A stretch of 48,121 nt of DNA, from contig NZ_JNIF01000002.1 in the NCBI RefSeq assembly GCF_000702445.1, positions 1 to 48,121 on the forward strand, given 5' to 3'. Below the pieces are notes generated by a model. The model was not told the origin of the DNA and ran no database searches. It saw only the letters and a list, made by a program, of their open reading frames with translations. This stretch comes from Bryobacter aggregatus MPL3. Its GTDB lineage: Bacteria; Acidobacteriota; Terriglobia; Bryobacterales; Bryobacteraceae. The translations under genes and the position numbers were made by a program. This document shows, in pieces, positions 28,477 through 38,897 of this stretch. Within the stretch, counting starts at the first letter, position 1; the number at the start of each line of letters is the position of its first letter.

Positions 28477-30177
28477 GTGACTCTCAATCAGGCCCTTACG
28501 GTCATCAACTCCAGAAAAGGCCAAGGTCCCAAGAAGATTCACTTTCTGGCTTGCGGCTTTGAACCGCTCCACCTCTCGAATCTGCTGCGCGCTCATCTCT
28601 TCGAACGCCTGTCCGGCACCGATGTCGAACTGCGACACGGAGTCTATGGTGACCTGCGGGGCAATCTCGATCTGGCTACCCAATCGGAAGCCATCGCCGC
28701 TGCCGCTGTCCTCGAATGGAGTGATCTCGACCCGCGTCTCGGCCTGCGTGCCAGCGGTGGCTGGTCTGCTGCCGCAAAGGCTGATATTCTCGCTTCCCTC
28801 CCGGCCCGCATAGCCCAGCTCGAAGCCGCACTCACCCCGCTCGGAGCCCGTATGCCGGTCGCCATCGCGCCGCCGTCGCTGCCCCTGCCACCACTTGGCA
28901 ATACGATCGATACCCAGAACAGCGGCTTTGAACTGGAACTCGAAGCACAGCTCGCCACCTTTCTTGCTCGCCTGGCTCAGATTCCTGGTCTGCGCATCGC
29001 CCGCTGCACCAGCAGTGAGCCGCGCCTCGATGCGCGCATGGAGCTGATGGCCGGCTTCCCCTATAAGCTGTCCTTTGCCTCGGCTCTTGCCGCGACCCTC
29101 GCTCAGGTGCTCTGGCAGACTCCACCGAAGAAGGGCCTCATCACCGATCTTGACCATACCCTCTGGGCCGGCATCGTCGGCGAAGTGGGCGCCGACGGCG
29201 TAAGCTGGCAGCAGGATAGCCATACCCAACTGCACGGTTTGTACCAGCAGATGCTGGGTCATTTGGCGAGCATGGGCGTGCTGCTCGCGGTCGCCTCAAA
29301 GAATGAGCAGAGTACTGCGGAGGCAGCTCTTGCCCGTCCCGACCTCTTTCTCGATGCGAGATCGCTATACCCGGTGATCGCCAACTGGGGGCCGAAGTCG
29401 GCCTCGATCGCCAAGATCCTCAAGACCTGGAATATCGCTCCCGATGCTGTCGTCTTTCTCGATGACAGCCCGATGGAGCTCGAAGAAGTGCAGCAGGCTT
29501 TTCCGGAAATCACTTGCCTGCCCTTCCCGGCCAAGGATCCTGACAAGGTGCTGCGTCTTCTCTCCGAGCTGCGCAATCATTTTGGCAAACCGCTCTTGCT
29601 CGAAGAAGATCTGTTGCGCCAGAACAGCATCCGGGCTGCGGCTCAACTCCAGAATCTGGGCGATGCGGCCCACGCTCCCGAATTCTTAAGTTCGCTCCAA
29701 GGCACCGTGAGTTTTGATTGGCGCCGCGACCCGGGCGGCGGTCGCGCTCTCGAGCTGATCAACAAAACCAATCAGTTCAATCTGAACGGCAAGCGGATCT
29801 CAGAAGGCGAATGGCAGCGCTACATGGAAGAGGAGAGTACAGTCTGTACGGTTGTCTCTTATCAGGACAAGTTCGGCTCACTCGGCCGGGTTGCGGTGCT
29901 GCTCGGTTCTCGCAATGGAGAAGAGCTTCGCGTTTCGCACTGGGTGATGAGTTGCCGCGCCTTCTCCCGCAAGATCGAACACCACACGTTGCAAGGGCTC
30001 TTTGCGCAAAGCGGCATCGAGCGCATTGCCTTTGATCTCGAAGTGACGCCGCGCAATCAGCCATTGCTGGAAACGCTCGCCCCGCTGGGGCTCAGTGCCA
30101 ACCAAGTCACGCTCACCCGCAACGACTTCCTCGCCCGCTGCGGTGCCCTGCCGCATCAGAATAGTTTAGGCGACTGA
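28477..30177 (+). CDS. FkbH-like glyceryl-ACP synthase
   Basis: A 566-aa protein of the FkbH/HAD-IIIC family. Known members take 1,3-bisphosphoglycerate, dephosphorylate it and load the glyceryl group on the phosphopantetheine arm of a carrier protein. The N-terminal SGNH-like part spans about residues 1-215. The HAD core shows GLITDLDHTLWAGIVGEVG near 218-236 (DxDxT-type nucleophile), AVASKNEQ and VVFLDDSPMELEEV. The C-terminal part has GNAT-like features (NKTNQFNLNGKR). It starts at GTG with no obvious ribosome site. The acyl carrier protein 1.4 kb downstream is the obvious partner. Confidence 0.87.
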   Translation: MTLNQALTVINSRKGQGPKKIHFLACGFEPLHLSNLLRAHLFERLSGTDVELRHGVYGDLRGNLDLATQSEAIAAAAVLEWSDLDPRLGLRASGGWSAAAKADILASLPARIAQLEAALTPLGARMPVAIAPPSLPLPPLGNTIDTQNSGFELELEAQLATFLARLAQIPGLRIARCTSSEPRLDARMELMAGFPYKLSFASALAATLAQVLWQTPPKKGLITDLDHTLWAGIVGEVGADGVSWQQDSHTQLHGLYQQMLGHLASMGVLLAVASKNEQSTAEAALARPDLFLDARSLYPVIANWGPKSASIAKILKTWNIAPDAVVFLDDSPMELEEVQQAFPEITCLPFPAKDPDKVLRLLSELRNHFGKPLLLEEDLLRQNSIRAAAQLQNLGDAAHAPEFLSSLQGTVSFDWRRDPGGGRALELINKTNQFNLNGKRISEGEWQRYMEEESTVCTVVSYQDKFGSLGRVAVLLGSRNGEELRVSHWVMSCRAFSRKIEHHTLQGLFAQSGIERIAFDLEVTPRNQPLLETLAPLGLSANQVTLTRNDFLARCGALPHQNSLGD

Positions 30178-31083
30178 GACAAAGGCCGCGTACATCAGCG
30201 GCAGCTTCAGCTTCATCGCCACGGCATCCGGCACATCGATCGCAAAGCGCGTGCTCTCTTTCTCGATGCGGAAGCCGCATTCCTCAAGCATCTGGCGAAT
30301 CTCGTCCGCATTGTGGAAGAGGTAGATGTGATCGGGCATCGGCGCATTGGCTGGCGTCGTGATGTAAGCCTTGCCGCCAGGCCGCAGCAAGAGCCGCAGC
30401 TTGTTCAGCAACCGCTTTGGCTCCTCGACATGCTCGAGCACCTCCCCCATCGTGATGAAGTCAAAGGCAGGAACGTCGGAGAAATCGAAGATATCCATCA
30501 GGTGGAAGTCGATTTCGTCGCTGGCCGCAAAGCTCTGGGCCATCGCCATCGAGGTCTCGCTGATATCCACCACCTCGATGGAGGCATGGCTGCCGATGCT
30601 GCGCTGCGCCTCGCACAGATACAGCGCATGGCCGCCGCCGACCTCCAGATAGGCGCTGGCATGAGCGGCGTATGCGGGCAGATGGTCGGAAAAGAAGGCA
30701 AAGCGCTGGTACTGATCGGGCCAGAGGAACTGCGCAAAGACGAGGCCATGCATGTGATGGCGCATCAGTTCCGGATTGGAGTAAAAGCTCTGGTTCACCG
30801 CATCGAATGAGGTGTTCGGATAGCGGCCGGTCGCCAGAAACTTCTTCCGCTCGCCTTCGACAATGTGCTGTAAGCGGATGAAGCTCTCTACCCCTTCTGC
30901 GAAACTAAGCCCCTGGCTATCGAGAAAGCGGGCATAACGAGACAGGAAGGCCTCACCCCGGCGCCGATACAGCTCGTCTTGCTTCTCAACAAAGGCTTTC
31001 GCTCGCAGGCCCATCTTCGGCTCCCGCTGTTCGAGAATTTCAAGAGTTTTCGGAAGGAAGGTCGATGAAGGAGCAAGCTGCAT
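30166..31083 (-). CDS. SAM-dependent methyltransferase
   Basis: A 305-aa class I methyltransferase. The SAM-binding strand is AYLEVGGGHALYLCEAQ near residue 143, DFITMGEVLEHVEEPKRLL is motif III, and LLRPGGKAYITTPANAPMPDH is the post-motif. The N-terminal 120 residues are helical and may hold the substrate-binding part. An open frame extends 27 codons upstream, but it crosses the promoter palindrome, so the ATG at 31083 is chosen. The C-terminus overlaps the convergent FkbH-like gene by 12 bases. The target is unknown, probably a sugar or the glyceryl unit. Confidence 0.82.
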   Translation of the reverse strand: MQLAPSSTFLPKTLEILEQREPKMGLRAKAFVEKQDELYRRRGEAFLSRYARFLDSQGLSFAEGVESFIRLQHIVEGERKKFLATGRYPNTSFDAVNQSFYSNPELMRHHMHGLVFAQFLWPDQYQRFAFFSDHLPAYAAHASAYLEVGGGHALYLCEAQRSIGSHASIEVVDISETSMAMAQSFAASDEIDFHLMDIFDFSDVPAFDFITMGEVLEHVEEPKRLLNKLRLLLRPGGKAYITTPANAPMPDHIYLFHNADEIRQMLEECGFRIEKESTRFAIDVPDAVAMKLKLPLMYAAFVSVA

Positions 31084-31096
31084 GGGGATAAAAAAC

Positions 31097-31114
31097 AGAT
31101 TCCCTAGGGAATCT
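31097..31114. promoter_or_regulatory. Perfect 18-bp palindrome in a divergent promoter
   Basis: AGATTCCCT and its exact complement, without a spacer, in the 46-bp gap between the methyltransferase and the VOC gene. GATAAT at 31118-31123, just before the ATG at 31130, may be a -10 box giving a very short leader. The palindrome would then sit in or near the -35 region, fit for a dimeric regulator. Confidence 0.6.
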
Positions 31115-31129
31115 CTCGATAATACAACT

Positions 31130-31552
31130 ATGGGAAGTGACAACGCCGTCGTGCTGCACCACATCGGCTACGCCGTCAAAAGTATTGAAACCGAAGCACC
31201 CCGATTTGCCAAACTGCTGGATGCCACCTGGGATGGGGTTATTTATCACGACCCGCTCCAACAGGCTCGCGTCACTTTCCTCAGCGCCAACCAGGCTCTC
31301 GCCGGTACGCCGAAGTTTGAGCTGGTGGAAGGCGACGGCGAAGATACTCCGCTCAGCCGCTTTGTCGCCAAGGGCGGCGGATTGCATCATATCTGCTACC
31401 AGGTGGATGATCTCGCCGCACACGTGACCGAGATGAAAGCGAATGGGGCGCTACTGATCAAAGCCGCGCAACCGGCCATTGCATTTGCCGGAAAACCGGT
31501 GGTCTGGATGTTCGCCCGGCCCCAGTTGCTGCTCGAATACATCGAGAGCTAG
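31130..31552 (+). CDS. VOC protein, methylmalonyl-CoA epimerase-like
   Basis: A 140-aa glyoxalase-fold protein. VVLHHIGYAVKSIE at the N-terminus and GGGLHHICYQVDDLAAHV near residue 82 supply the two histidines of this fold, and the final LLLEYIES has the conserved glutamate. This pattern is closest to methylmalonyl-CoA epimerases and to VOC proteins that accompany FkbH/ACP genes. It may act on a carrier-bound acyl group. An ATG at 31082 is in frame but precedes the palindrome, so 31130 is preferred. It is followed 45 bp later by the carrier protein. Confidence 0.8.
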   Translation: MGSDNAVVLHHIGYAVKSIETEAPRFAKLLDATWDGVIYHDPLQQARVTFLSANQALAGTPKFELVEGDGEDTPLSRFVAKGGGLHHICYQVDDLAAHVTEMKANGALLIKAAQPAIAFAGKPVVWMFARPQLLLEYIES

Positions 31553-33062: not shown

Positions 33063-34649
33063 ATGCCAACTCTTCCATTTGAGCGTTTAGCCGTTAGGCT
33101 AGATGCCGTGTTGAATCGCAACAAGTACCTCTATCTGGCGGCAATGAGCTTTTTATGTGCGTTGACGAGCATCGGATACTCACACTCAAAAGCGGCCTGG
33201 ATTGATGAGATCCTGCAGATTCACATTGCACGCCTGCCCACCGCCGCTCAGGTGTGGGAGAACATCCGCGGCGGTTCTGTGCAGATGGACCCGCCTTTGC
33301 TACATATGCTCGACCACTTTCTGATCCAGACCTTTGGGGACAGTTTGCTTGCTGTCCGTATGGCCTCTATTGTGGGCTTCATTTTGATGTGCGTTTGCAT
33401 CTCACTCTTGCTCTGGCGTTATGTACCAGCCATCTATGCAGCAGCAGCTTTCTTTTTGCCTTACGCAACCGTGTTGCGCACACGAGTGCCCGATGTCCGG
33501 CCTTACGGAATGATGCTTGGCTTCTCTGCTCTTGCCCTATTGTGCTGGGACTCTCTCAACAATCCTGAAACCACCGGACGACGGCGGGCCTGGTGGCGCA
33601 TTGGCTTACTTTTGAGCTTGGCCGCAATGTTTTCAACGCACTTCTACAGCATCCTGTTTCTTGCTGGTTTTGGTGTCGCCGAACTTGTCCGCCTGCTGCA
33701 ACGCAAACGCCCGGACTGGCCTCTGTACGGTACTGTTGCGCTGGCATTCATCCCCTATCTGATCTGGCTTCCGACTCTGCTCGCAGCAAAACGGATTTAC
33801 ATGCAGCACTACTTTTTTCCAGTCAACTTCAATAACTTCTACAGTTTCTATTCCTTTGCAGTACAGAGTCTGCCCTTAGCTGGATTGCTGCTCTTCCTGC
33901 TCCTAATTCTCGCCCTGGCCCCTCGGCTGGAGTATCGCGAACCGGTACCGCCTTCTGATTCCCAACGAACTCTGCTGCTGGCTTGTTTGGGATTCCTGAT
34001 TGTACCCCTGGCTGGGTATCTCGTCGGTTTGCTGGCGACGGGTATTTTTGTGAATTACTACCACATTATTGCCACTTTTGGCTTGATTGTAGGACTCCCA
34101 TTGGTTCTCTCCTACTTGTCAGGCGGACAGCGTGCCATTGGGCTAGCATTGTTCGCCGCGATTGTCGGACATGGCATGCTTGTCACCGTACGGGGTATTT
34201 CTGGGTTCCGACGTACAGATACCTTCTATCCCAGCTTGGCCGCGGTGCGTGCCATTATTCCCGAGCCTCGGCCAGACATCGTTCTTCCTTCTCCCCTGCA
34301 CTTTCTTTCTTTTCAGGAAGCCAATCGAACAGACCCCGAAAACAATCTGGTCTATCTCTACGACGCCAAGAAGGCTTTGGACGCACTCGGGACAGATACG
34401 GCCGATCTTTGCCACTACTATCTGAAGCAGATCACCAATTCGGTTCGTATCGAGGCATTCGATCCATGGCTAGCACAGCATCCGCACTTCTATATCGCTG
34501 TCCTCGGCGAAAGTATCGGTGTGCAAGAGTGGCAATATGACTATCTCTTGCGCCAGGCAAGAGCAAAGATGACCTGGCTCGGAAAAGTAGGCAGCTTCCA
34601 GATTTATCGCGTTGACCAGAACACAACCGCAACGGTGGCTCCTCAGTGA
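33063..34649 (+). CDS. GT39/ArnT-like membrane glycosyltransferase
   Basis: A 528-aa integral membrane protein with about ten to twelve helices. The first periplasmic loop has AAWIDEILQIHIARLP and QMDPPLLHMLDHFLI, the acidic and D-PPL patterns shared by GT39/ArnT/PMT-type enzymes, which take sugars from polyprenyl phosphate outside the inner membrane. It also has a C-terminal soluble part (DIVLPSPLHFLSFQEANRTD). It heads a five-gene operon: its TGA overlaps the GTG of the HAD gene. DPM1-like GT2 proteins at the end of the operon could supply its lipid-linked donor. Confidence 0.85.
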   Translation: MPTLPFERLAVRLDAVLNRNKYLYLAAMSFLCALTSIGYSHSKAAWIDEILQIHIARLPTAAQVWENIRGGSVQMDPPLLHMLDHFLIQTFGDSLLAVRMASIVGFILMCVCISLLLWRYVPAIYAAAAFFLPYATVLRTRVPDVRPYGMMLGFSALALLCWDSLNNPETTGRRRAWWRIGLLLSLAAMFSTHFYSILFLAGFGVAELVRLLQRKRPDWPLYGTVALAFIPYLIWLPTLLAAKRIYMQHYFFPVNFNNFYSFYSFAVQSLPLAGLLLFLLLILALAPRLEYREPVPPSDSQRTLLLACLGFLIVPLAGYLVGLLATGIFVNYYHIIATFGLIVGLPLVLSYLSGGQRAIGLALFAAIVGHGMLVTVRGISGFRRTDTFYPSLAAVRAIIPEPRPDIVLPSPLHFLSFQEANRTDPENNLVYLYDAKKALDALGTDTADLCHYYLKQITNSVRIEAFDPWLAQHPHFYIAVLGESIGVQEWQYDYLLRQARAKMTWLGKVGSFQIYRVDQNTTATVAPQ

Positions 34650-35338
34650 TTCGAGCCATCGTTTTTGATATGGATGGAGTCTTAGTCGATTCGACAACAA
34701 GCCATGCCTTGGCATTTCAAGAAGTTCTGCAGGGGATCGGTGTGGGGGGCTTCGACTATAGCCAATACGCCGGAGAGCGCACTCCCGATGTATTTCGGAA
34801 AATCCGTGCGGAACGTGGTTTAAAACTCAGCGAAACAGAAATCAACGTGCTGGCGGATACAAAGAGCGCCAGGGCGCGACAGTTGCTCTCCGAAAATGAC
34901 TGCTTCATGCCGGATTACAAACTCGTTCTAGAAAGATTGGCAGAACACTTTGTGTTGGCGCTGGCCAGTTCCGGGTCGCGCAGCAGCGTTGATGACTTTC
35001 TCGATCGCGGTGGGGCCCGCAAGCTGTTTCGCAGTGTTCTTTCCGGTTCCGACGTAGAGAATGCGAAACCTGACCCGGAGATCTATCTCCGCAGCTTTTT
35101 GCAATTGGAGTGCCAGCCGGAAGAGTGCGCCGTAGTTGAGGACGCCTTGTCCGGTGTCCTTGCCGCAAAGAGAGCTGGCGCGGGTAGAATCATTGGCTTC
35201 CACCCAAAACGGGATGGCGGTAGCGAGTTATTGACGGCTGGGGCAGCACCTGTAATCGGGATGCTGCGAGAATTGCTGGAGCTGTTTGCCGTGCCACCCG
35301 GAGGAGTGAAGATATCATGCCAGCCTGGCCTATTTTAA
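34646..35338 (+). CDS. HAD-superfamily phosphatase/phosphoglucomutase-like protein
   Basis: A 230-aa HAD hydrolase of the beta-phosphoglucomutase-like subgroup. Motif 1 is VFDMDGVLVDS (nucleophile D9 and D11), motif 2 is ALASSGSR near residue 111, and motifs 3/4 are KPDPEIYL and VVEDALSGVLAAKRAG. The small helical cap domain lies between motifs 1 and 2. Start GTG overlaps the preceding stop. It might dephosphorylate a sugar phosphate or interconvert sugar 6- and 1-phosphates for the following nucleotidyltransferase, with which it overlaps by 22 bases. Confidence 0.87.
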   Translation: MIRAIVFDMDGVLVDSTTSHALAFQEVLQGIGVGGFDYSQYAGERTPDVFRKIRAERGLKLSETEINVLADTKSARARQLLSENDCFMPDYKLVLERLAEHFVLALASSGSRSSVDDFLDRGGARKLFRSVLSGSDVENAKPDPEIYLRSFLQLECQPEECAVVEDALSGVLAAKRAGAGRIIGFHPKRDGGSELLTAGAAPVIGMLRELLELFAVPPGGVKISCQPGLF

Positions 35339-36138
35339 ATCGTGAGAACTGGATTGAATCTGCGGCAGCTGATGCAAATCCGGACGACTATAGTGTTGTC
35401 ATCGCTGCTGCAGGGCGTGGCACGCGCCTTGATTTCAATAAGCCCAAGATCCTTTTCCCTCTGCTAGGGAAGCCCATCCTCGAATGGTTGATCGAGCTGT
35501 TTGCCCCACGCGTATCGCGTTTGGTAATCGTACTCTCCCCCGAGGGAATCTCTTTTGTGAAACCAGAGCTCGACCGGCTCATTCCGGGCCGATACGATAT
35601 TGTGGAACAGCCGATCCCGATCGGAATGGGAGACGCCGTGGCTCGCGGTCTCCAGGCCGTAAAGACGCCTTCGGTCGCCATTGTCTGGGGAGATCAGGCT
35701 GCACTCCAAACAACCACCATCGATGCGGTTCTGCGGCTGCACGCAGGTCCGCTCCATCCTTTTGCGACCCTTCCGACCGTAAAAACCAGACCTCCCTACA
35801 TTCACTTCCTGCGCAACCTGGAAGGTAGAATCGATGGATTGCTGCAGGCCCGAGAAGGCGATTCCATGCCTGAGGAAGGAGAAAGCGATGTCGGTTTCTT
35901 TTGTTTTCACACGCAGCCTCTTCTTGCGCTGTTAGACCAGATGCGGCAATCCGGCACAGCAAGAGGTGCAGCCACAGGAGAGTTCAACTTCTTGCCTGTC
36001 ATTCCTCTTGCGTCCCAACAGGGTAAGATTCTGCTCACCCCTCAAATCACAAATCCGAGTGAGGCCATGGGCATTAACTCCCGCGCCGATGCCAGCCGTC
36101 TAGAATCCCTTCTAGGAAGTGAGAAGCAGGATGTCTAA
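35317..36138 (+). CDS. GlmU/MobA-like nucleotidyltransferase
   Basis: A 273-aa NTP-transferase-fold protein. YSVVIAAAGRGTRLDFNKPK near residues 26-45 is the nucleotide-binding signature, followed by LFPLLGKPILEW, the base-contacting IGMGDAVARGL and VWGDQAAL. The end AMGINSRADASRLE resembles the GlmU sugar-1-phosphate uridylyltransferase core (GINNR). It would make a nucleotide-activated sugar or, by analogy to CofC, activate another phosphate compound. It overlaps both its neighbours, so the operon is translationally coupled. No C-terminal acetyltransferase domain is present. Confidence 0.85.
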   Translation: MPAWPILNRENWIESAAADANPDDYSVVIAAAGRGTRLDFNKPKILFPLLGKPILEWLIELFAPRVSRLVIVLSPEGISFVKPELDRLIPGRYDIVEQPIPIGMGDAVARGLQAVKTPSVAIVWGDQAALQTTTIDAVLRLHAGPLHPFATLPTVKTRPPYIHFLRNLEGRIDGLLQAREGDSMPEEGESDVGFFCFHTQPLLALLDQMRQSGTARGAATGEFNFLPVIPLASQQGKILLTPQITNPSEAMGINSRADASRLESLLGSEKQDV

Positions 36139-38146
36139 CTCTGAGAAAAGCTCCCCCAAGCTGAACATCACCATGTTTTCTGGTGGAAGTGGAACTCATT
36201 CGATTACTGCCGCGCTTTGGCGTCACCCGCAAATCTCCCTGAAGATTCTCATCAATGCCTATGACGATGGACACTCCACGGGCCGTCTGCGGCGTTTTTT
36301 ACCCGGCATGTTGGGCCCCAGCGATGTGCGGAAGAATCTCAACCGGCTCATGCCAGAGCGCGAACAGTGTCACCGGAGTCTTAAGAAAATCTCCGATCAT
36401 CGCCTCCCTGTCGGAATCCCCGCAGCAGAAGCCTTAGCCCTCATGGATATGATTCTGGCCGGACGCTGTACAAAATTGCCCGCACCCTTAGCTGACAGCT
36501 TTGCCCAGCTCAACGTCGCGCAGTATCACCGAATCCAGTCCTTCCTCTCCACTTTTCGGCGCTACTACGATGAACAGTTTGAGAAGAACAATGTCTTCAA
36601 CTTTACCGATTGCGCCTTAGGCAACCTCTTCTTTGCGGGTTGCTATTTGGAAGAAGGACAGGATTTTAACCGCACCATCGCCGCCTTCAGTGTCTTTCAT
36701 GATGTTGATCCTTCCATCCTGTTGAACGTGACCCAGGGAGAGAACCTCTTTCTTGCTGCAATGAAGGAGGACGGCCAACTGGTTGCCAACGAGGCCGATA
36801 TCGTAGCGGCACAAAGCAGCAACGCCAAAATCTCGCACCTCTATCTTTTGTCAGGCGATACCTACCTCGACAAGATGGAGCGCCAGGGCATCCTTCCTGA
36901 AGAGGGTTGGGAACACTTTCTCACCGCACAGCACGTCACCCCCGAGATTTCTCCGGCTGCAGCCGCAGCCATCGCCGAAGCTGACGTTATCATTTACGGA
37001 CCCGGCACACAACACTCCTCCCTTCTCCCTTCTTACCTGACTCGCGGCGTTGGCGAAGCCGTGGCTTCAAACCGGCAGGCAGACAAAATTTTTGTGGCGA
37101 ATATTCATCGGGACCTCGATATTCCAACCGACGATATCAACGACCTGGCCCGGAAATTTGTGGCGGCCATACAACGCCCTGGCCCCAAGATCAATGTGGA
37201 ATGGGAAGATGCAGTCACTCATTTCTTTGTTCAGGACGATCACCTGCGGACGGACAGCGCCAAGTACATCCCCTTTGATCCTGCTCAGTTCTGCTACTCC
37301 TTGAAAACGGTTCGGGTTCGGGATTGGGAATCCCAGGAAGGACGCCATTCTGGTGGCTTTGTTCTCGATGAAGTGCGGCAGATTGTTCAGGAGCGGATTG
37401 ATATCCGAATTGAGCGGACCTCGCATATGGTCTCGATCCTCATCCCAATCTTGAATGAAGAACGAACAATCGAAGAAGTTCTCAAAAGCGTCGTAGCGCT
37501 CGATTTTCAGGCGCTCGGTTTGAGCAAAGAAGTTTTAGTGATCGATGGGGCGTCAACAGACCGGAGCTACGAATTAGCGCAGAAAGTACGTTCCGTGAAA
37601 GTCTTGCGGCTGGATCAACAACAAGGGCGCGGAGCCGCTCTCCGTATGGGCATTGATGCGGCACGGGGTAATCTGATTGTGTTCTTCCCAGGGGATAAGG
37701 AATACAGCACGGGCGATCTCTATTCGCTCGTCAGCTCGCTCGTGAATTCGCGTTTCCGCACCGTCTTCGGGAGCCGGGCCGTAAAGTGCATCAACCTAAG
37801 TGGGGAACTGCGCTCCATCTACCAGAACAATCTGAGTCTCTATCTGGCCAGCAAATACGGCGGCATGCTACTCAGTATCCTGACTCTTCTGATCTACAAC
37901 CGCTATGTGACAGATGCACTTTCAAGCGTTAAGGCTTTTGACGCTGAATTCCTGCGCTCTTTGCGCCTGCAATGTGATGGCCGGGATCTGGACACCGAGA
38001 TTGTCGCCAAACTGGCTCGCCGGGAGGAATATGTTCTCGAACTGCCCGTCGACTATACTCCCCGCAGCCGCTCTGCTGGCAAGAAGATCACTGTCTTTGA
38101 TGGCTTAGCCTGCATCTGGACCTTGATTCGAGAGCGCTTTTCTTAA
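36131..38146 (+). CDS. YvcK/CofD-like domain fused to GT2 glycosyltransferase
   Basis: A 671-aa fusion. Residues 10-420 match the YvcK/CofD fold: MFSGGSGTHS at 15-24, AYDDGHSTGRLRR at 43-55, PGMLGPSDVRKNL at 58-70, CALGNLFFAG near 160, and EADVIIYGPGTQHSSLLPSY near 285-304. YvcK proteins bind UDP-sugars; CofD transfers a phospho-acid from a nucleotide donor. From about residue 432 a GT2 domain begins: VSILIPILNEERTIEEVL, VLVIDGASTDRS, QGRGAALRMG, FFPGDKEY, and DTEIVAKLARR, as in DPM1-like transferases. The ATG at 36131 is preferred to a GTG at 36119. The order of motifs indicates a genuine single reading frame, not a frameshift artefact. Confidence 0.85.
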   Translation: MSNSEKSSPKLNITMFSGGSGTHSITAALWRHPQISLKILINAYDDGHSTGRLRRFLPGMLGPSDVRKNLNRLMPEREQCHRSLKKISDHRLPVGIPAAEALALMDMILAGRCTKLPAPLADSFAQLNVAQYHRIQSFLSTFRRYYDEQFEKNNVFNFTDCALGNLFFAGCYLEEGQDFNRTIAAFSVFHDVDPSILLNVTQGENLFLAAMKEDGQLVANEADIVAAQSSNAKISHLYLLSGDTYLDKMERQGILPEEGWEHFLTAQHVTPEISPAAAAAIAEADVIIYGPGTQHSSLLPSYLTRGVGEAVASNRQADKIFVANIHRDLDIPTDDINDLARKFVAAIQRPGPKINVEWEDAVTHFFVQDDHLRTDSAKYIPFDPAQFCYSLKTVRVRDWESQEGRHSGGFVLDEVRQIVQERIDIRIERTSHMVSILIPILNEERTIEEVLKSVVALDFQALGLSKEVLVIDGASTDRSYELAQKVRSVKVLRLDQQQGRGAALRMGIDAARGNLIVFFPGDKEYSTGDLYSLVSSLVNSRFRTVFGSRAVKCINLSGELRSIYQNNLSLYLASKYGGMLLSILTLLIYNRYVTDALSSVKAFDAEFLRSLRLQCDGRDLDTEIVAKLARREEYVLELPVDYTPRSRSAGKKITVFDGLACIWTLIRERFS

Positions 38147-38162
38147 GGACTTCTTTGTACCC

Positions 38163-38897
38163 ATGCGTACTCTATCCATCGTGATTCCCGCTTATAACGA
38201 AGAAGTGTTTCTAGGCGCTCTGTTAGAGCGGATTCTCAGTGTTCCTGTCGAGCAGCTTGGGTTTCGGAAAGAGCTGCTTGTCATCGATGATGGCTCAAAG
38301 GATAAGACTCGTGAAATCGCACTTGCCTATGCTGCCAAACATGATTCCATCCAGGTCTTCACGCAAGTGCCGAATCAAGGCAAGGGGAAGGCAGTGCAGC
38401 GCGGAATTCGGGAGTCTACTGGGGAGTTTGTCCTGATTCAGGATGCGGACCTCGAATATGATCCGGATGATTATCCGGCTCTACTGGCTGCCTTATCGCG
38501 AGCAGATGTTGTATACGGCAGCCGCACCCTCGGACAGTTCCAGCAGCAGGGCTGGACTCTTTTCCCTGGACGGCATGCCTCTCAGAAGTTCGGTCCCTGG
38601 CTAGCTGGGGTACTACTGACACTTTGGACTTTCCTGCTCTATGGCCGCTGGATCACCGATACACTGACTGCCTATAAGTTGTACCCAGGGCCAGTGATCC
38701 GTCAAATGCGCATTGAGACCAAAGGATTTGAAACCGATCACGAGATCACCGCAAAACTGATTCGACAAGGATTGCAATTGACCGAAGTCCCGATTGCGTA
38801 TCATCCGCGAGGCGCCGAAGAAGGCAAGAAAATCAAACCCATTGATGGCTTGATTGCCGTATATACTCTGCTTCGATTCCGCTTTGGACGGTTGTAG
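38163..38897 (+). CDS. DPM1-like GT2 glycosyltransferase
   Basis: A 244-aa family 2 transferase resembling polyprenyl-phosphate mannose/glucose synthases. LSIVIPAYNEEVFLGALLE starts the GT-A fold, LLVIDDGSKDKT and NQGKGKAVQRGI follow, and the metal site is IQDADLEYDPDDY near residues 92-104. A single hydrophobic segment (AGVLLTLWTFLLYG) may touch the membrane. It is very similar in layout to the C-terminal half of the preceding fusion, with the shared tail RGAEEGKKIKPIDGL versus RSRSAGKKITVFDGL, so the two probably arose by duplication. It lies 16 bp after the fusion gene. Confidence 0.88.
   Translation: MRTLSIVIPAYNEEVFLGALLERILSVPVEQLGFRKELLVIDDGSKDKTREIALAYAAKHDSIQVFTQVPNQGKGKAVQRGIRESTGEFVLIQDADLEYDPDDYPALLAALSRADVVYGSRTLGQFQQQGWTLFPGRHASQKFGPWLAGVLLTLWTFLLYGRWITDTLTAYKLYPGPVIRQMRIETKGFETDHEITAKLIRQGLQLTEVPIAYHPRGAEEGKKIKPIDGLIAVYTLLRFRFGRL

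Follow-up and report, generated by a model that had tools for sequence, protein, structure and literature searches.

We analysed a stretch of DNA from Bryobacter aggregatus MPL3 (hereafter the window), which is one whole contig of 48,121 bases in a 5.75 Mb genome of four contigs, and which encodes a protein joining a CofD/YvcK-like domain to a glycosyltransferase (GT) domain in a single chain. The gene belongs to an operon of five genes that run in one direction with tight or overlapping ends, encoding a membrane protein, an HAD enzyme, a GlmU-like nucleotidyltransferase (NTase), the fusion and a stand-alone family 2 glycosyltransferase (GT2). The fusion lies at positions 36131–38146 on the + strand as a single open reading frame (ORF) of 671 amino acids, beginning at ATG 36131 or GTG 36119, with its stop codon ending at 38146. 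An earlier note on this DNA had described a single-chain fusion here, with YvcK-type motifs in a first half followed by a DPM1-like GT2, and our analysis agrees on the single frame, the quoted motifs and the domain order. Pfam CofD (PF01933) matches residues 13–348 (E-value 2.9e-24, 86.2 bits, above the gathering cut-off of 30), and Pfam Glycos_transf_2 (PF00535) matches residues 435–556 (8.1e-22, 78.4 bits, above the gathering cut-off of 23.3).

Structure prediction gives the same picture. The AlphaFold2 model, built from a 36-row alignment of relatives, has a mean predicted local distance difference test score (pLDDT) of 90.6 and a predicted template modelling score (pTM) of 0.88. Among the best 50 Foldseek rows, the first half matches YvcK structures (2o2z_A, E 2.2e-14, template modelling score on the target 0.83), and the second half matches ArnC, dolichyl-phosphate mannose synthase (DPMS) and GpgS. 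Combining the Pfam and Foldseek matches with the alignment to relatives, we place the CofD/YvcK-like domain at residues 10–420 (36158–37390, + strand) and a GT-A tail of the DPM1/ArnC type at residues 428–671 (37412–38143, + strand). The same CofD/GT junction is seen in 12 of the 200 genomes searched from the order and at 55 loci, so an assembly error between adjacent genes, which the earlier note had allowed for, is ruled out for practical purposes, and the one-chain architecture is confirmed. In the open-access literature, with most subscription journals outside this scope, we found no description of the CofD::GT architecture or of its gene module, in line with the note's statement that no characterised enzyme of this domain order was known to it.

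The first half is closest to YvcK/GlmR (UPF0052, TIGR01826), both in fold among the best 50 Foldseek rows and in sequence among solved proteins; a profile search against solved chains reached YvcK chains and no CofD/FbiA chain. The note's expectation of a YvcK/CofD profile match stands for the Pfam CofD superfamily, and fails for the curated families within it: the fusion scores 73.9 bits on TIGR01826 against a cut-off of 196 (the separate chromosomal YvcK of the same genome scores 365.9 bits), and has no match at E ≤ 0.1 to the F420 CofD model (TIGR01819, cut-off 257.45). Among CofD models, both the fusion and the four relatives scanned score highest on that of the GAK-system CofD-like proteins (TIGR04357), yet the fusion's 88.7 bits lie under the cut-off of 340, and that model has 368 positions without a GT tail. 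Judged by these curated cut-offs, the fusion belongs to the CofD superfamily and to none of YvcK/GlmR, F420-CofD and GAK-CofD.

A search of the 200 genomes from the order, using the CofD half as query (E ≤ 1e-10), gave matches in 12, own genome included, from 10 of 75 genera, with open frames of 633–725 residues. The tail and linker are conserved in the ten close relatives of the window, while the eleventh, L032, is distant, with 27% identity along the full chain. A motif-based scan of genome contigs recovered 55 loci, whose labels cover about ten phyla: Acidobacteriota, Pseudomonadota (Magnetococcales, Pseudomonadales, Alphaproteobacteria), Myxococcota, Bdellovibrionota, Synergistota, Patescibacteria, Verrucomicrobiota, Bacteroidota, Binatota and Actinomycetota. 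Some labels of metagenome-assembled genomes are doubtful, as L061, labelled 'Bacteroidetes', groups among Verrucomicrobia in a tree. The GT tail is carried by 49 of the 55 loci, counting 45 full-length frames and four (L034, L036, L060, L067) whose ORF is cut or re-started and in which GT matches are seen; the others are three tail-less Actinomadura loci, two frames cut before the tail (L045, L088) and one unreadable frame (L087). A search of 396 genomes of the phylum gave matches in 10, comprising the own genome, one clade I member, six members of a third, more distant fusion clade from other Acidobacteriota families (clade III, L091–L096) and two weak distant matches (L097, L098). Some loci from the order and phylum searches come from the same genomes as motif-scan loci; only motif-scan loci enter the 55.

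Residue conservation was counted over 42 sequences: 36 from the alignment, which contains the window plus 35 of the 55 loci, and six from clade III. The alignment omits L040, L050, L058, L066, L069, L075, L078, L080, L082 and L084 to limit its size, most of them near kept rows, as well as the cut or broken frames (L034, L036, L045, L060, L067, L087, L088) and the tail-less L077, L081 and L083.

In the CofD half, D45-D46 of a YDDG motif (36263–36268, + strand), aligned to the YvcK DD motif (D40/D41 of Listeria GlmR), and D65 of a GPSD motif (36323–36325, + strand), aligned to the Asp of the YvcK PGD motif, are present in 42/42 sequences. So is N324 (37100–37102, + strand), aligned to Asn217 of B. 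halodurans YvcK (N218 in B. subtilis), where this residue contacts the ligand (PMC5482804; this and the other papers are cited here from excerpts). H406 is also invariant in all 42, and all five residues are found in 36/36 alignment rows and 6/6 clade III rows. The DD motif, the P-x-D motif and the ligand Asn are thus common to the fusion and YvcK/GlmR. The metal of FbiA is held by two Asp (PMC8498797), and we infer that D45 or D46, together with D65, are their counterparts; D65 would be the second metal Asp of CofD/FbiA, corresponding by way of YvcK to D57 of FbiA.

Other features set the fusion apart from YvcK/GlmR: about 60 extra residues in the CofD part, the C-terminal GT-A tail, the glycan operon and a Ser in place of N198. 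Using the spacing of 158 residues from the first Asp in the own-genome YvcK, GlmR N198 falls on S301, so the third GlmR residue is not kept in the fusion. This position, within P300-S301-Y302 (37028–37036, + strand) where YvcK has L/I-P-N, is Ser in 41/42 sequences and Thr in one (L056). Of the three residues changed together in inactive GlmR (D40, D41, N198), two therefore have matches, D45 and D46. For the UDP-N-acetylglucosamine (UDP-GlcNAc)-binding residues Tyr265 and Arg301 of YvcK, candidates picked by eye are Y379 and R405, both beyond the profile alignment (hhalign ends at 347), and R405 is variable in relatives. Outside the 42 sequences, D46 is Asn in Actinomadura L077 and L083, a D-N pair also seen in one solved YvcK, 2ppv; in Actinomadura L081, D45-D46 is G-N and D65 is Ala, so that all three Asp are lost.

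The tail shows the opposite pattern at its catalytic motif. It shares the fold of the polyprenyl-phosphate glycosyltransferases DPM1, ArnC and GtrB (GT2) and keeps Y525, R549 and D595 in 42/42 sequences. R549 corresponds to the Arg of the G-S-R motif in the DPMS alignment, which in DPMS contacts the lipid phosphate. Unlike these enzymes, not one of the 42 fused tails has an intact D-x-D. In the window, P520-G-D522 (37688–37696, + strand) stands at this position, the first Asp being replaced by Pro. The canonical enzyme is instead the neighbouring stand-alone DPM-like GT2 (38163–38897, + strand; Pfam 1.8e-30), with an intact D-x-D whose D94 and D96 are kept in 39/39 sequences, window included.

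The fused tails fall into three clades. Clade I has 23 rows, among them the window; all 23 carry Pro in place of the first D-x-D Asp and retain the GT2 nucleotide-site residues E443, D472, S475 and D477. The 13 rows of clade II all have Ser or Thr instead of the first Asp and Arg instead of E443, and D472, S475 and D477 are replaced or in gaps, so that the nucleotide site is kept in 0/13; the GT-A fold is still present in a clade II model (pLDDT 87.0, pTM 0.81; Foldseek to ArnC, E 4e-07). The six rows of clade III have Asp or Glu at the first position, and Ser at the second in 6/6; D522 is universal in the 36 alignment rows and Ser in these six. In a quick tree, one starred branch unites clade II with Actinomadura, and the Acidobacteriota rows of clade I make up a second one.

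We next considered the partner genes, counted by tblastn (E ≤ 1e-5), as longest-ORF gene calling had masked some of them. Among 35 loci with at least 3 kb of flank on both sides, an NTase lies beside the fusion in 33, a stand-alone GT2 in 27 and an HAD enzyme in 24; over all 55 loci the counts are 48, 41 and 36. The two well-flanked loci lacking an NTase are L087, with its unreadable frame, and L081 (9971–11212), the Actinomadura copy that lost its three conserved Asp, has no HAD or NTase in reach and looks decayed. The own genome holds one other match to the NTase query (GlmU) and three to the HAD query, so abundance does not explain this neighbourhood. The earlier note had suggested a survey of homologous fusions and their neighbours; it mentioned neither the operon partners, above all the GlmU-like NTase, nor the wide spread of the fusion, both of which are seen here.

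Partners are also found within one chain. NTase::CofD::GT proteins of 932–963 residues occur at L049 (2633–5524), L056 (8119–10917) and L059 (681–3548), with a further case in L050, which is identical to L049 over the CofD domain. HAD::NTase chains occur at L035, L039, L040 and L041, and two of the three Actinomadura loci (L077, L083) have a tail-less CofD beside HAD and NTase. For NTase and CofD, pairwise distances in 44 entries, among them the window, correlate with r 0.94, and none of 1000 permutations exceeded 0.27; near-copies and shared ancestry inflate such an r. At L046 (11976–14207), the stand-alone GT2 continues into a membrane part, giving a 743-residue frame with 8 hydrophobic segments.

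The NTase of the window (35317–36138, + strand) overlaps the fusion by 8 bases and matches Pfam NTP_transf_3 (2.4e-15). It scores 78.8 bits on the glmU model TIGR01173, under the cut-off of 366.85, its best matches in the Protein Data Bank are GlmU chains, and its R37, K44 and D126 are conserved in 47/47 and N254 in 46/46 sequences, window included. The HAD-IA enzyme (34646–35338, + strand) belongs to the beta-phosphoglucomutase/phosphatase group (Pfam HAD_2, 1e-25) and scores 113.4 bits on TIGR02009, under the cut-off of 153.35. Among solved chains, a sugar phosphatase, CbbY and beta-phosphoglucomutase come nearest to it, and over 36 sequences (window included) D8 and K141 are conserved in 36/36, D10 in 35/36 and E165-D166 in 35/35; it may be either a phosphatase or a mutase.

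Two known systems combine similar parts. The fusion's CofD beside a GlmU-like NTase resembles the pairing of CofD/FbiA with CofC/FbiD in F420 biosynthesis, which involves the same Pfam CofD superfamily and putatively the same two-Asp metal pattern. CofC/FbiD has been compared structurally with GlmU and is inactive without CofD/FbiA; the NTase activates a phospho-acid, which CofD passes on (PMC8498797). Unlike the F420 system, the NTase of the window matches GlmU models and no CofC family, and its setting is polysaccharide synthesis. The second parallel is with YvcK itself: in the own genome the housekeeping yvcK (L033 6512–8930, contig C4) lies directly beside glmU, and GlmU is found within 1.5 kb of YvcK in 12 of the 18 YvcK loci of the order (one genome contributes two).

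The earlier note had put forward two ideas, a glycosyltransferase gated by a UDP-sugar or a new phospho-transfer to a glycan, and the latter fits best and is our leading hypothesis. We propose, with a probability of roughly 0.4, that the fusion carries out the phospho-transfer step of a dedicated surface-glycan pathway, in which the NTase would make a nucleoside diphosphate derivative of a compound X (NDP-X), and the CofD domain would transfer X-phosphate to a lipid-linked glycan. The architecture, operon, conservation and co-occurrence are observed and the fold is predicted; from these we infer each chemical step, the nature of X and of the acceptor, and what the tail does. The NTase, fed or helped by the HAD enzyme, would convert phosphorylated X, probably a sugar- or polyol-phosphate, into NDP-X. 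In the CofD domain, a metal coordinated by D45/D46 and D65 would help to bind NDP-X, and the domain would pass X-phosphate to a polyprenyl-linked acceptor, at either a hydroxyl or a phosphate, releasing the nucleoside monophosphate. The GT-A tail would mainly hold this acceptor and, in the window's own clade, may have kept the ability to bind a nucleotide sugar. The stand-alone GT2 would make a polyprenyl-phosphate sugar, to be used on the outside by a membrane protein.

This assignment of roles is suggested because the CofD site is constant, the GT nucleotide site decays and the NTase is rarely absent: the CofD half looks like the conserved enzyme, with NTase-made NDP-X as its likely substrate, and the GT half resembles a tail for holding the acceptor, which is the opposite of what a gated glycosyltransferase would show. 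A sugar-phosphate is favoured as X because YvcK lies beside glmU, a parallel that also sustains a GlmR-like activity of the fusion.

Several points weigh against a phospho-transfer by the CofD domain. Retrieval of the loci relied on the motifs INAYDDGH and F[IL]P[GS]MLGPS, which under-counts members whose motifs have changed and partly builds in the conservation of D45, D46 and the surroundings of D65; the conservation of N324 and H406 is unaffected, and a profile search supplied the six rows of clade III. L077 and L083 carry HAD and NTase even with Asn at D46, so this residue is either not needed everywhere or those copies differ. HAD was not found by tblastn in 11 of the 35 well-flanked loci. 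The tail of clade I, with its nucleotide-site residues in 23/23 rows, may still be a working glycosyltransferase, and metal-independent GT-A enzymes exist. The CofD domain is nearer to YvcK/GlmR than to F420 CofD by both sequence and fold, and the reaction reported for GlmR is a nucleotidyl transfer (PMC10128056). Finally, adjacency and fusion speak for a shared pathway rather than for NDP-X as the substrate of CofD, and the substrate, product and activity of the fusion are proposals.

The nearest competitor, which we consider doubtful, takes the kinship with GlmR at face value: the CofD domain would make or hold a UDP-sugar and hand it over to an active fused polyprenyl-phosphate GT2 working with P-x-D in place of D-x-D. 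GlmR is reported to make UDP-GlcNAc from UTP and N-acetylglucosamine 1-phosphate, and this uridyltransferase activity drops about 100-fold in the D40A D41A N198A triple change (PMC10128056), of which D40 and D41 are matched by D45 and D46 here. YvcK binds UDP-sugars (PMC5482804), the own-genome yvcK neighbours glmU, and the remaining GT2 nucleotide-site residues are found in all clade I tails. However, the counterpart of N198 is Ser or Thr throughout, the neighbouring NTase would already do this job, and Actinomadura has the CofD without a tail to supply. In addition, clade II lost the nucleotide site in 13/13 despite its conserved CofD, and the metal Asp of clade III is Ser in 6/6.

Two independent active sites are an unlikely arrangement in our estimate, with CofD transferring X-phosphate and the fused GT2 adding a sugar in consecutive steps on one lipid-linked intermediate. 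Both sites do look largely intact in clade I, to which the window belongs, yet every clade I tail has Pro at the first D-x-D Asp, a residue that the stand-alone GT2 keeps in 39/39. A UDP-sugar sensor that switches the fused GT2, much as YvcK/GlmR regulates GlmS, is clearly improbable, even with UDP-GlcNAc-dependent partner switching described for B. subtilis GlmR (PMC7525490) and a confident two-domain model (pTM 0.88), since a sensor would not need D45, D46 and D65 invariant in 42/42, the tail to be switched has no intact D-x-D in 42/42 and is degenerate in two clades, the CofD is found tail-less beside HAD and NTase in two of three Actinomadura loci, and R301 of YvcK, essential for UDP-GlcNAc binding, has no conserved counterpart by eye in a region where the alignment is uncertain (past residue 347).

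The roles we encountered for studied CofD-superfamily proteins are F420 assembly (PMC8498797) and cell-wall precursor supply by GlmR/YvcK (PMC10128056, PMC7525490, PMC5482804). If the phospho-transfer hypothesis is correct, the fusion would represent a third CofD branch, spread over about ten labelled phyla with recurring partners, and would add CofD chemistry to glycan building. The recurrence of the module in very different bacteria suggests that groups may be attached to surface sugars by a so far undescribed route. It also bears on the general function of the CofD fold, whether phosphoryl transfer, nucleotidyl transfer or sensing, on which the GlmR papers propose differing answers; the natural single-chain NTase::CofD::GT proteins make this question testable with one expressed protein. 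Were the tail a retired glycosyltransferase kept as an acceptor platform, it would clearly exemplify the reuse of a catalytic fold to hold a substrate. More speculatively, and with no great expectation that it is right, the fusion could define a new class of non-integral phosphoglycosyl or X-phosphate transferase, with CofD-fold catalysis, NDP-X from a GlmU-like partner, a polyprenyl-linked acceptor held on a retired GT2 and, in some species, NDP-X channelled within one chain; it would do the same job as WecA/PglC-type membrane enzymes with an unrelated fold.

The first gene of the operon (33063–34649, + strand) encodes a 528-residue polytopic membrane protein with 7 hydrophobic segments and overlaps the HAD gene by 4 bases. 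It has no Pfam or NCBIfam match at E ≤ 0.1; reading it by eye, we take it to be perhaps GT-C-like. A large ORF with at least 7 hydrophobic segments lies within 6.5 kb in 20 of the 35 entries examined, not all of these being GT-C-like. Other genes recur near the relatives and do not belong to the operon of the window: an S-adenosylmethionine (SAM) methyltransferase with paired Cys in 17 of 52 clustered entries, and a B12-type radical SAM protein in 9 of 52 (for example L054 4593–6086 and L055 14076–15581). The two may modify the sugar.

Upstream of the operon lie polysaccharide genes encoding a priming transferase, a flippase, a polymerase-like protein and a GT4. Inside this cluster, at window positions 28477–31552, a gene for an FkbH-domain protein adjoins genes for a methyltransferase and a methylmalonyl-CoA-epimerase-like protein.

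From its gene content, the contig resembles a plasmid. No direct repeat of at least 60 bases that would have pointed to circularity was found in the window. The single pattern scan of viral contigs, the only viral search made, gave 2 pattern matches and no relative. A plasmid collection gave 3 distant CofD-family matches (25–27% identity), and the one we opened, from Acaryochloris, is a 365-residue CofD gene without a GT tail. A relative of the fusion lies on the plasmid record pF-183-2 (40,882 bases; Bryobacterales bacterium F-183). Across the window (1–48121), a ParA-like gene at the start, a Toprim primase, a DnaB helicase, an integrase and two PEP-CTERM proteins are arranged around the polysaccharide cluster.

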